Shown: positions 46,726 through 49,455 of the stretch, in pieces
How positions within the stretch are numbered: position 1 is the stretch's first letter
How the letters are laid out: each line of letters begins with the position of its first letter
NCBI RefSeq assembly: GCF_035975855.1
Contig: NZ_CP109055.1
Coordinates: forward strand, 8,618,001 to 8,682,000
DNA length: 64,000 nt
Direction of reading: 5' to 3'
Source of the DNA: Streptomyces sp. NBC_01304
Lineage (GTDB): Bacteria; Actinomycetota; Actinomycetes; Streptomycetales; Streptomycetaceae
Notes under the pieces: model-generated
The model's database searches: none
Seen by the model: only the letters and a program-made list of their open reading frames with translations
What the model was told of the DNA's origin: nothing
Made by a program: the position numbers and the translations under genes

Positions 46726-47355
46726 CTACTTGTTGACCACGATCGCCTGGATCTCGTTGGGCGTCGCGCTGTCGAAGAACACGATCACCTGGTGGCCGGC
46801 GATGAACGCACGCTGGACCACGTCCTGCACGACCTGGCTCGGGTTGTGCAGCTCACGCCAGATGCTGTCGGCAAGCAGGAACAGAATCGGCGGCTGGCCG
46901 GGCAGGGCGTCGACGACGTCCCAGTAGCGCGTGGCGACACCGCTCTGGATGGCCTCCGCGCCGGCGCCGCCCATCTGCTGCAGCAGCTGCTGGATGGGCT
47001 GCTGCTGGCCGAGCTGCTGGAGCTGCTGCTGGAGCTGCGGCGGCAACTGCTGCTGGCCGTACTGCTGTTGGCCGGGCTGCTGCGACTGGCCGTACAGCTG
47101 CTGACCGTACATGGGCTGGCCGAACTGCTGCTGCGGCTGCCCGAACTGTTGCTGCTGGCCGAGCTGCTGCTGAGGCTGGCCGAACTGCGGTTGCCCGAAC
47201 TGCTGCCGGCCGAAGCCCTGCTGCTGCGGCGGGGCGGTGCTCGGGCCCTGCTGGCCCTGCTGGCCCATGCCGAACTGGCCCTGGCCGTACTGCTGCTGGC
47301 CCTGCTGCTGGGGGATCTGCTGGCTCTGCTGGCTCATCTGCGGGGTGGTGCTCAT
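46726..47355 (-). CDS. glutamine-rich prion-like protein with C-terminal shared domain
   Basis: A 209-residue protein. Residues 1-127 are almost only Gln with Gly, Phe, Tyr and Pro, in repeats such as QQFGQPQ and QQYGQQQ. From about 140 to the end it has a folded domain: TRYWDVVDALPGQPPILFL, WRELHNPSQVVQDVVQRAF, then VIVFF and EIQAIVV. The same domain ends the subtilisin gene 66 bases upstream, so they are one operon. A poly-Gln/aromatic disordered region is typical of prion-like or phase-separating proteins and is rare in bacteria. ATG 47355 is taken as start; a GTG eleven codons upstream is possible. The function is unknown. Confidence 0.8.
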   Translation of the reverse strand: MSTTPQMSQQSQQIPQQQGQQQYGQGQFGMGQQGQQGPSTAPPQQQGFGRQQFGQPQFGQPQQQLGQQQQFGQPQQQFGQPMYGQQLYGQSQQPGQQQYGQQQLPPQLQQQLQQLGQQQPIQQLLQQMGGAGAEAIQSGVATRYWDVVDALPGQPPILFLLADSIWRELHNPSQVVQDVVQRAFIAGHQVIVFFDSATPNEIQAIVVNK

Positions 47356-47421
47356 GCGGGTGCCACCTTCCCTCACTGATTGATTCACTGCGATCCTTAC
47401 GAAGGTGCCGGTTCAGCCGGT

Positions 47422-49164
47422 TCAGCCGGTGACGACCAGGCCCACGACCTCGTCGTCGGAGAACCAGACACGTACGTCCGGCCGGCCCCCGGCGAATGCG
47501 GAATGCACCGCCTGACGGATCTCGGGGGACGGGTCGTTCAGGTTCCGCCACGCGCCGGCCACGAACAGGCGCAGGCGCGGCGGGAGTTCACGGGGATAGG
47601 GGACCAGTTCGTCCCAGTAGCGCTCGGCCTGCCCCTGGCCCACCGCGGACGGCACCAGACGGGTGACCGCGGCCCTGATGTCGGGGCGGTTGCCGATGCG
47701 CTGCGATGCGGGCCGGCCCGGCGCGTGCTGCTGCTCGGAGCCCGTGGTCCGCAGGACCTCGCGAGCGCGCTCCGGCGTCATCGGCTGAGTGCCCGCCGCC
47801 TTCAGCATGCCCTGCAGACAGGCCAGGGCGCCGACCACCACCGGCGAGGCCGACGAGGTGCCCGAGAAGGTGTCGGTGTACCAGGCGATCTCCTCGGCGC
47901 CGCCCTGCAGATCGCCGGGCTGGTTCCAGGAGCCGCCGGTCGTGGTGGTCTCGCGGCCCCAGCCCTGGGCGTCCAGGCGGGCCCCGTAGTTGGAGAACGC
48001 GAGCCGCGAGCGGTCCGGGCCGTGGTCGCGGCCGTGGGTGCCGGGCGGCGGTGCGCCCGCGCCCACCAGGATCGCGCCGGACGGCTGGTTCGACGGGTTG
48101 AAGGGGTTGCGCCACCACTCGGGGAACTCGGCGGGGCGGCGCTCGTACACCGCGTCGTCCAGGGACTGGGCGCCATTGCCCGCGGCCTCGACGACCAGGA
48201 CGCCCTTGGCCGTGGCGAAGCGGATCGCGGCATAGTCGTCCGGCCACCACTCCAGGGCTATGTAGCCCTTCTGGTCGTCCCGCGCCTCGAAGTCGAACTT
48301 CGGCCCCGGCCGGTGCAGTTCGATCAGCACGATGTCACCGGGCGAAAGGCGGTCCGCCGCGGCGTGGATCGCCGCCGCCGAGCCGATGCCCTGGAACGAC
48401 GCCGCGGCGGTGACCGCCTCGGGGGCGATGCCGGTGATGCCCTTCTCATTGCGGTCGCCACCGATCACGCCGAGCACGGCGGTGCCGTGGTTGCGCCACG
48501 CCAGGTCCTGCAGCGGCGTCCCGATCACCACGCCGGCGAGCTTCGCCGCGAGGTCCTCGTGGCGCAACTGCCAGGCGCCCTCGACGTCGATCACGGTCAC
48601 GCCCTCGCCGGAGCCGCCGGCCCGCTGCCAGGCCCAGTGCGCGTCCACGCCCTCGGGCGCCGGACGCAAGTAGCCCTGCCGGCCGGTGAAGTCGGGCGTC
48701 GCGCCCTCCTTCTGGCGCTGGCTGTCGTCGGCGGCGCTCTGCCCGGCCGAGCCGAACGACGCGGGCACGGCACCCGGCTTCACGTACGCCGTCTCGATCT
48801 CCGGCAGCGCGGCCATGCGGGAGCGCAGCTCCTGGGCGCGGCTCTCGCCGCCGCGTACCCGGTAGAACAGTGCGAGGTCGGGCCCCTGTTCGCGCATCTG
48901 CGACGTGGGCACCGCCGACTGCAGCCGCTCCTCATTGCCGAACAAGGGCTCCAGGCCGAGCTGTTCGTCGGTCAGGAACATGTTCAGGGCGGAGACGTCC
49001 GCCCCGGCGGCCGAGCGTACGCCCCTGGCCTCGGCGCGCAGCCGGGCCTCGGGCCGTGCGACGACGATGAGTTCCTGCTCGGCGCCTCGGTAGGTGAATC
49101 CCGCTCCGTCAGGTCCTGGTCCGGCGGCTCCCGGGCCCTGGGCCGGTTCTACCTGGTCGGTCAT
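47422..49164 (-). CDS. intracellular subtilisin-family (S8) protease with C-terminal shared domain
   Basis: A 580-residue protein. Residues 22-135 are an unusual N-terminal domain (GFTYRGAEQELIVVARPEARL through ELRSRMAALPEIETAYVKP). The S8 domain spans about 170-500, with Asp193 in VTVIDVEGAW, His226 in RNHGTAVLG, Asn330 in EAAGN and Ser437 in FSGTSSASP, so the triad is complete. Residues 512-580 (AERYWDELV, LRLFVAGAWRNLNDPS, GLVVTG) match the C-terminus of the Gln-rich protein. No signal peptide is present, so it acts in the cytoplasm. GGGGAG precedes the ATG. It is the first gene of the pair. Confidence 0.85.
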   Translation of the reverse strand: MTDQVEPAQGPGAAGPGPDGAGFTYRGAEQELIVVARPEARLRAEARGVRSAAGADVSALNMFLTDEQLGLEPLFGNEERLQSAVPTSQMREQGPDLALFYRVRGGESRAQELRSRMAALPEIETAYVKPGAVPASFGSAGQSAADDSQRQKEGATPDFTGRQGYLRPAPEGVDAHWAWQRAGGSGEGVTVIDVEGAWQLRHEDLAAKLAGVVIGTPLQDLAWRNHGTAVLGVIGGDRNEKGITGIAPEAVTAAASFQGIGSAAAIHAAADRLSPGDIVLIELHRPGPKFDFEARDDQKGYIALEWWPDDYAAIRFATAKGVLVVEAAGNGAQSLDDAVYERRPAEFPEWWRNPFNPSNQPSGAILVGAGAPPPGTHGRDHGPDRSRLAFSNYGARLDAQGWGRETTTTGGSWNQPGDLQGGAEEIAWYTDTFSGTSSASPVVVGALACLQGMLKAAGTQPMTPERAREVLRTTGSEQQHAPGRPASQRIGNRPDIRAAVTRLVPSAVGQGQAERYWDELVPYPRELPPRLRLFVAGAWRNLNDPSPEIRQAVHSAFAGGRPDVRVWFSDDEVVGLVVTG

Positions 49165-49455
49165 CGGTTCGCGCTCCCCTCGGATGTGTCCTGCTGGATT
49201 TCCTCGGCTTGCCCGTGCTCCGCATCGGCCGTGCTCCGCGCCTTCGGGGCACACCCTGCTACCGCTCGGGCATCTCGTCCACCCCCCGTCCGGCCAACAG
49301 GGTTTGAAAGGAAGTTGAATGGGGAACCCAGGGCAACCTCGTGCAATCCGGCCGAAAACCGATGTCGCGATGTCTGTCGGCCAAGTGCTGCGCGGACGCA
49401 GGTCATGTGGTGGGGTGTGAGCGACTGTTGACCCGTATTGGCGGAAGGACGCGAC

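Follow-up and report, generated by a model that had tools for sequence, protein, structure and literature searches.

We analysed a window of 64,000 nucleotides from Streptomyces sp. NBC_01304 (contig NZ_CP109055.1, positions 8,618,001 to 8,682,000), focusing on two genes that encode an S8 protease and a glutamine-rich (Gln-rich) protein (Table 1). An original prediction, made from the letters alone, had treated them as a two-gene unit, and they are indeed neighbours on one strand with 66 bp from the protease to the Gln-rich gene. It had also described the protease as keeping its full catalytic triad including Ser437, as lacking a signal peptide and as having an unfamiliar N-terminal domain. 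The first two descriptions were borne out. The protease falls into peptidase family S8 (subtilases) by its match to PF00082 (E 5.2e-14, above the cut-off), and alignment gives D193, H226 and S437 as the triad together with N330. These D/H/N/S residues are identical in 81/81 aligned sequences, comprising the window protease and the 80 loci surveyed below. Inspection by eye showed no N-terminal hydrophobic stretch or secretion signal in the window proteins, and the protease is probably cytosolic. The “unfamiliar” domain turned out to be a subtilisin pro-domain, as found in the S8 family, which aligns with pro-subtilisin E and pro-Tk-subtilisin from model residue 30-31 and was modelled with a predicted local distance difference test (pLDDT) of 60-92 per ten residues, mostly >80. 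Identity with a mycosin of the type VII secretion system (T7SS) was rejected, as the protease scored 36.8 bits against a curated NCBIfam cut-off of 278.75 bits.

The two proteins end alike. Residues 513-580 of the protease and 141-209 of the Gln-rich protein are 36% identical over 70 BLASTP columns (E 9e-11), and the family profiles of the two C-termini match with an hhalign probability of 97.7 (E 1.7e-12). A translated search of the host genome with the protease tail found the protease itself and the Gln-rich gene (E 3.7e-5) and no further gene, the next match being at E 1.57. These E values place the shared tail far above chance, and by these comparisons the last 68-69 residues of both proteins are one domain. 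The original prediction had claimed this from an alignment by eye and had named the profile comparison beforehand as the check that could refute it; the claim stands, and a common domain is suggestive of direct interaction. The tail of the Gln-rich partner was predicted as an OB-fold, and the protease's own tail had low confidence in the full-length model. Searching for solved structures related to the tails by sequence gave nothing below E 0.37, and none of the scanned tails of the classes A, B and C described below matched Pfam above a curated cut-off.

The protease core is shared well beyond Streptomyces. A plasmid search turned up versions with 56% identity in Nostoc and in the archaeon Haloferax mediterranei, and cores of 50-65% identity are common to halophilic and methanogenic archaea, cyanobacteria, proteobacteria, planctomycetes and Streptomyces. 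The Haloferax tail has no detectable similarity to the Streptomyces tail. The next Haloferax gene, encoding 84 residues, is a copy of that enzyme's own tail (77% identity over 75 residues, E 3e-43); the two tails lie at L148, 7438-7689 and 7755-8006. We surveyed the best 80 of 440 relatives of the Haloferax enzyme, one genome per species, and searched all remaining open frames of each locus for a match to the enzyme's own tail. The Haloferax type, class A, ended 34 of the proteases, class B ended 6 and class C, the Streptomyces type, 11; the others had KE-rich tails (9), a 145-residue tail (6), other tails (12) or none (2). The gene that follows on the same strand holds a tail copy in 27/34 class A, 5/6 class B and 11/11 class C loci, giving 43/51 in total, against 0/255 for shuffled tails and 0/51 for tails from another class (E < 1e-4). 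Partners outside Streptomyces consist of the tail domain alone and have no Gln-rich arm. Free copies of classes A and B measured 73-88 residues in 27 of 32 cases, and the other 5 were longer by a rough start-codon rule. The three classes showed no significant similarity to one another (E 0.09-0.26). A common fold for the class B and C tails, which have a similar strand order by eye, was considered and dropped (profile E 0.19 and 0.26).

At one KE-rich locus, L179, the end of the tail is also common to the next gene. No convincing tail copy was found in the locus for the other KE-rich loci, the 145-residue class, the “other” tails or the tail-less proteases. ATP-grasp-like genes lie nearby downstream in 7/9 loci with KE-rich tails, and the two that were scanned (L179, L209) match the RimK-like family PF08443 with E 3.4e-10 and 1.5e-13. 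Such loci resemble those of graspetides, which are ribosomally synthesized and post-translationally modified peptides (RiPPs), and by this analogy the KE-rich tail could be modified. The neighbour survey listed the 14 largest clusters of adjacent genes, and upstream pro-domains, tail copies and the ATP-grasp gene were checked member by member. On one example each, the remaining clusters were put down to flanking sequence common to Streptomyces, to shadows of reading frames or to a generic ABC-transporter ATPase, and were rejected as further recurrent genes.

Unsupervised comparison of the neighbours also revealed a small gene directly upstream of the protease, typically ending in VEAAYxKPxDExP. 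Its profile matches S8 pro-domains, that of the window protease included (A9), with an E value of 6.1e-16. This free pro-domain was found upstream on the same strand in 49/80 loci (profile search, E <= 1e-3), with 27/34 in class A, 4/6 in class B, 6/6 in the 145-residue class, 7/9 with KE-rich and 5/12 with other tails. In L177, L203 and L218 it lies nearby, elsewhere in the locus. Because both the pro-domain and the tail are encoded again beside the protease, the fullest form of the cassette, as read from the genes, is one of three genes: free pro-domain, protease and free tail. We are highly confident of the cassette as a genetic arrangement, that is a pro-domain, a catalytic domain and a tail, with the tail re-encoded next door and often the pro-domain upstream. 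By eye, the start of the free pro-domain in two Chloroflexota (L169:401-769, L171:4607-4975) resembles a lipoprotein signal (LALMLIAC, LASMLVAC), which would fit export of the inhibitor but not of the protease. On the Paenibacillus plasmid pART37 (L151:5585-7083) the pro-domain and catalytic domain of a close homologue are in two overlapping frames, annotated as two genes.

Table 1. Coordinates of the gene pair, its parts and associated features (window positions unless a surveyed locus, L, is named)
Feature	Coordinates	Strand	Remarks
S8 (subtilisin-family) protease	47422..49164	-	580 aa; no visible signal peptide
Subtilisin pro-domain of the protease, residues 31-129	48778..49074	-	structure model, alignment, profile
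Subtilisin catalytic domain, residues ~160-505	47650..48687	-	D193/H226/N330/S437
Tail domain (class C) at the protease C-terminus, residues 513-580	47425..47628	-	
Partner gene, Gln-rich arm and free-standing tail-domain copy	46726..47355	-	209 aa
Gln-rich low-complexity arm of the partner, residues 1-140	46936..47355	-	composition
Tail domain of the partner, residues 141-209	46729..46935	-	OB-fold model
Conserved non-coding stretch, ~130-155 bp upstream of the protease start	49295..49319	-	24 upstream regions aligned
ATP-grasp-like genes near KE-rich loci	L179:9350-10351, L209:7682-8623		relatives in L215, L216, L218, L220, L226

The tail and its copy keep to the protease locus. With a threshold of E <= 0.001 the class A tail profile matched twice in 27/34 genomes, the paired matches adjoining, and once in 7/34; the class B profile matched twice in 5/6 genomes and once in 1/6. 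No class A match was found away from the protease locus in the 34 genomes. Over all 40 whole genomes (34 of class A and 6 of class B, several being drafts or metagenome bins) the tail was found at this locus and nowhere else. A tree of this short domain, with many unresolved forks, divides class A into two groups, protease tails and free copies (4 label changes against 20.8 in shuffles), suggesting that the duplication is old. Distances between class A tails and copies also correlate beyond what the core accounts for (partial Mantel r 0.46, p 0.0005, 27 pairs). In a tree of 86 protease cores (short search, midpoint root) class B, class C and the 145-residue class each form one clade and class A is spread (7 changes). 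Since the classes are mutually dissimilar and B and C are each one clade, we infer that a change of tail went together with a change of the adjoining copy, so that the pairing was restored each time. The tail swap is thus a natural experiment on pairing specificity.

The genome searches in Streptomyces and its relatives scored part of the first-look candidates, so that their presence counts are lower bounds and genomes could be missed. For the 199 Streptomyces genomes the candidates scored were 6 in the protease search, up to 30 with the Gln-rich tail profile and 26 with the class A tail; for the class C tail they were 20 in the class and 15 in the phylum, and for the class A tail 15 in the class. 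The protease was found in 28/199 Streptomyces genomes and the Gln-rich tail profile matched the same 28, with both genes side by side in 24/28. Proteases of S. avermitilis were also among the hits. Co-occurrence of the two families had also been named beforehand as a refuting check, and it did not refute the pairing. Class C tail matches never exceeded two per Streptomyces genome. In the host's class the class C tail occurred in 6/296 genomes, all in one of 114 genera, and in the phylum in 3/396, plus two partial matches in another genus (E 0.008-0.009, ~30 residues each) that we treated as chance; neither search found it outside Streptomyces. Distant relatives from genus g37 in the class search (L093-L103, 33-36% identity) have a different C-terminal region and, in those printed, an N-terminal signal-like stretch; they look like ordinary secreted subtilases.

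In the host the pair was said to be inserted, with a propeller gene, between mshC and parJ. The site was confirmed and the propeller as a fixed member was not. A full protease lies between mshC and parJ in 10/13 regions fetched (chosen, not random). Among 30 genomes without the pair (chosen of 171) the mshC and parJ matches are neighbours in 24, 93-651 bp apart; the propeller alone lies between the flanks in 2, and parJ was beyond the 1.5 kb fetched in 4. The propeller gene was seen in 5/13 regions (L077, L081, L083, L084, L085) and we discarded it as a fixed third component. An insertion specific to the window was likewise ruled out, given 28/199 Streptomyces genomes with the protease and the recurrence of the site. 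Over an mshC tree of 42 rows the pair is patchy (9 changes against 10.6 in shuffles), and this scatter suggests repeated gain or loss at one site. In G455 a 105-codon frame between parJ and mshC (L080:7281-7598) contains MTDQV, the protease's first residues, and continues with the tail a dozen residues on; without the protease body it is a natural tail-only remnant. A cut-off protease lies on another contig of this assembly, which has 6% contamination. G312 carries a divergent, 65% identical protease at another locus (L078:8845-10632) in which Ala has replaced the catalytic Asp (VVAVEGAW); the Gln-rich tail profile search found no partner for it. The non-coding stretch upstream of the window protease is strongly conserved among 24 Streptomyces upstream regions, with consensus arms CAACT...AGTTG (the window reads TGTTG), and is a possible control site of the protease.

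The class A tail is also found on other head proteins. It occurs in 2/199 Streptomyces genomes. An astacin metalloprotease of G296 (PF01400, E 7.6e-49) has it at its C-terminus, and 320 bp downstream the domain is encoded once more, on its own. This astacin tail region is common to 44 protein clusters, 44/44 with PF01400, in a search that took in proteins of limited length sharing short words with the query (44/79 candidates). In G386 (L277:916-1740) the tail sits on a further protein type without a Pfam match that contains ELDLYLMG. The host's class has it in 2/335 genomes, each time as part of a Sortilin/BNR-type propeller protein that has a free copy next to it. Among the “other” tails 7/12 are tandem repeats in cis with a period of 47-56 residues, by a window count that also flags the KE-rich tail of L218 (17/30), and 0/12 had a trans copy found in the locus. 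They include Tachylectin (E 1.2e-42), FG-GAP, DUF5648 and BTRD1, and by this match at least one tail type is a lectin family (Tachylectin). Classes A, B and C have one tail in cis and mostly one gene in trans, and these seven have several copies in cis, which suggests that more tail copies are used (multivalency).

A subtilisin pro-domain serves to fold its enzyme and to hold it inhibited until the pro-domain is cleaved. We propose that the enzyme is made as an auto-inhibited, locked zymogen in the cytosol and that the free pro-domain, where present, would be an extra lock in trans. The free tail and that of the protease would together build a mixed, multivalent complex that serves to position or activate the enzyme; we give such co-assembly an even chance. 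The assembled tail might recognise a target on other cells or a cellular structure, with release or triggering being conditional, and in Streptomyces the Gln-rich arm of the tail subunit may cluster the complex. For this explanation as a whole, in which the window locus is the Streptomyces version of the widespread cassette, we regard the chances as even. A broader, so far undescribed gene-pair principle is possible, though we lean somewhat against it. An effector (subtilisin, astacin or beta-propeller) would bear a small tail that the next gene encodes alone, and evolution could swap the two tails jointly for an unrelated pair. With the free pro-domain added, this would make a self-locking two- or three-gene protease device common to Archaea and Bacteria, whose probable use, through a multivalent tail, is against or on other cells; in Streptomyces the free tail would have gained a FUS-like low-complexity arm. 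As for the job of the family, a conditionally released or triggered protease that binds its target through a multivalent, in some members lectin-like, tail is a tentative and rather doubtful suggestion.

Several observations weigh against this proposal. The partner is absent in 8/51 class A-C loci (some of them drafts or metagenome bins) and was not found in 4/28 Streptomyces genomes, so that it must be dispensable at least sometimes. No free pro-domain lies upstream in 11/11 class C loci or in the tail-less loci (0/2), and in the window genome the pro-domain profile found only the protease's own pro-domain (150/281 candidates scored). No second copy of the class A tail was found in the G386 genome. 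The correlation of tail and copy beyond the core is weak in Streptomyces (r 0.25, p 0.07, 11 pairs), and as the class A tail also tracks the protease core (r 0.83), much of the class A correlation is common history. The G312 homologue, which lies outside the 81 aligned sequences, lacks the catalytic Asp. Finally, the survey fractions are not population estimates because the loci are the best 80 of 440 for a class A query.

Among other explanations, the original prediction favoured regulated proteolysis of a condensate, with the Gln-rich protein as a prion-like or amyloid-like scaffold cleaved by the protease in stress or development. The arm invites this reading. In the window it has 44% Q, 16% G and 0% each of N, K and D, as in the Q/N-rich, uncharged composition of prion-like domains, and a recurrent Leu/Gln stretch (LQQQLQQLGQQQP.QQLLQQ) precedes the tail domain. 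Over 121 homologues it is 39% Gln with almost no charge and has F/Y among G/Q, and the genes are mostly side by side in the protease-bearing Streptomyces genomes. However, the spacing of its aromatic residues, which we examined for regularity, is no more even than in shuffled arms (mean z -0.13, 116 arms). The protease and its tail persist in G306 and G396, where the 76 and 164 bp between the mshC and protease matches leave no room for the Gln-rich gene, which is therefore gone. Since partners elsewhere lack the arm, it is a Streptomyces addition and unlikely to be the core of the mechanism. We accordingly gave up condensate proteolysis as the core of the system and think the scaffold model improbable.

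A partner acting as regulator or decoy would see the free tail compete with the protease tail for one ligand or docking site, restraining or timing the enzyme. The upstream pro-domain looks like a trans inhibitor, and a second restraining copy fits the same logic; moreover, two copies that bind one ligand need not bind each other. Yet the tails repeated in cis in 7/12 “other” loci suggest that more copies are used, not fewer, and the partner is missing from 8/51 loci though the catalytic residues are intact there, making this reading unlikely. An anti-phage or programmed-cell-death module of the effector-associated-domain (EAD) type seems to us quite improbable. Recurrence of the effector's small domain in an adjacent gene is given as a hallmark of EADs (PMC7159879), and the distribution of the cassette is patchy and crosses domains of life. 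Against it, 6 proteins gave no PADLOC match at E <= 0.01 (absence from the library being no proof), with a weak generic subtilase match for P0001 (E 0.014) and none at E <= 1 for P0002. No dedicated NTPase or sensor was among the 14 largest neighbour clusters listed, the ABC-transporter ATPase cluster (8 loci) being background. Genomes searched here have at most two tail copies, compared with many of one domain in some genomes in the same account (PMC7159879). A viral origin was also rejected: 39 pattern matches in viral contigs included no relative, and four phage records held S8 proteins 27-32% identical over 66-71% of the query. It is very improbable, finally, that the tail simply duplicates easily and that the copy is a functionless hitch-hiking by-product. 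The copies are short and adjacent and 8/51 loci do without one, but class A tails and copies are two old paralogous groups (4 label changes against 20.8 shuffled) that have stayed neighbours in archaea and in several phyla of bacteria, and the arrangement is seen again with each of three tail types and on three kinds of head protein.

The finding thus grows from a Streptomyces pair to a candidate protease system in archaea and several bacterial phyla, and the cassette offers an explanation for a conserved Streptomyces Gln-rich protein that is labelled hypothetical in the sources. Its duplicated ends lead to directly testable hypotheses, with a trans inhibitor in front and a trans tail subunit behind. 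In the literature, searched mostly at title level, we found no described function for the protease core, in agreement with the earlier suspicion of an undescribed system. The same search returned nothing on subtilisin-like proteases in anti-phage conflict systems or on a Streptomyces subtilase with a glutamine-rich protein, and work on prion-like or glutamine-rich Streptomyces proteins, judged by title, held nothing on this one.

Parts of the cassette have known counterparts. Family I9 comprises subtilisin pro-domains and free-standing propeptide-like inhibitors. The upstream gene is likewise homologous to the enzyme's pro-domain and keeps the C-terminal Y.KP motif, but is encoded immediately upstream of a protease with its own pro-domain, probably cytosolic, in archaea and bacteria. 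PopC of Myxococcus xanthus is a subtilisin without signal peptide that is held in the cytoplasm by the co-transcribed inhibitor PopD and released on starvation. Likened by description only, PopC/PopD is in our view the closest precedent in function for such a pairing of cytosolic subtilisin and inhibitor. PopC appears as S08.143 in a portion of PMC9549277. Fungal cytoplasmic chimerolectins, as outlined in parts of PMC13324453 and PMC5256987, join a glycan-binding module to another functional domain; PSL1a combines lectin and proteolytic activity, and such proteins are described there as anti-predator defence. Their likeness to a protease with a binding tail is again one of description only. 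The OB-fold B subunits of bacterial AB5 toxins, known from solved structures, may be a further counterpart of the partner tail with its predicted OB-fold. A secretion signal would be expected of such subunits, and by eye none is visible in the window proteins. By analogy the nearest published principle is the effector-associated domain, of which some genomes have many copies (PMC7159879; Kaur et al. 2020; as far as the portion consulted goes). There too a small non-enzymatic effector domain recurs in an adjacent gene (here in 43/51 class A-C loci), homotypic coupling is proposed, and the domain types change while the principle stays. In EADs the second copy is fused to a core component such as VMAP, iSTAND, Ubl or GAP1, whereas here it is bare or bears a Gln-rich arm. 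In addition, none of the 40 class A and B genomes has more than two copies, the tails are beta-rich and there is a second duplication, that of the pro-domain.

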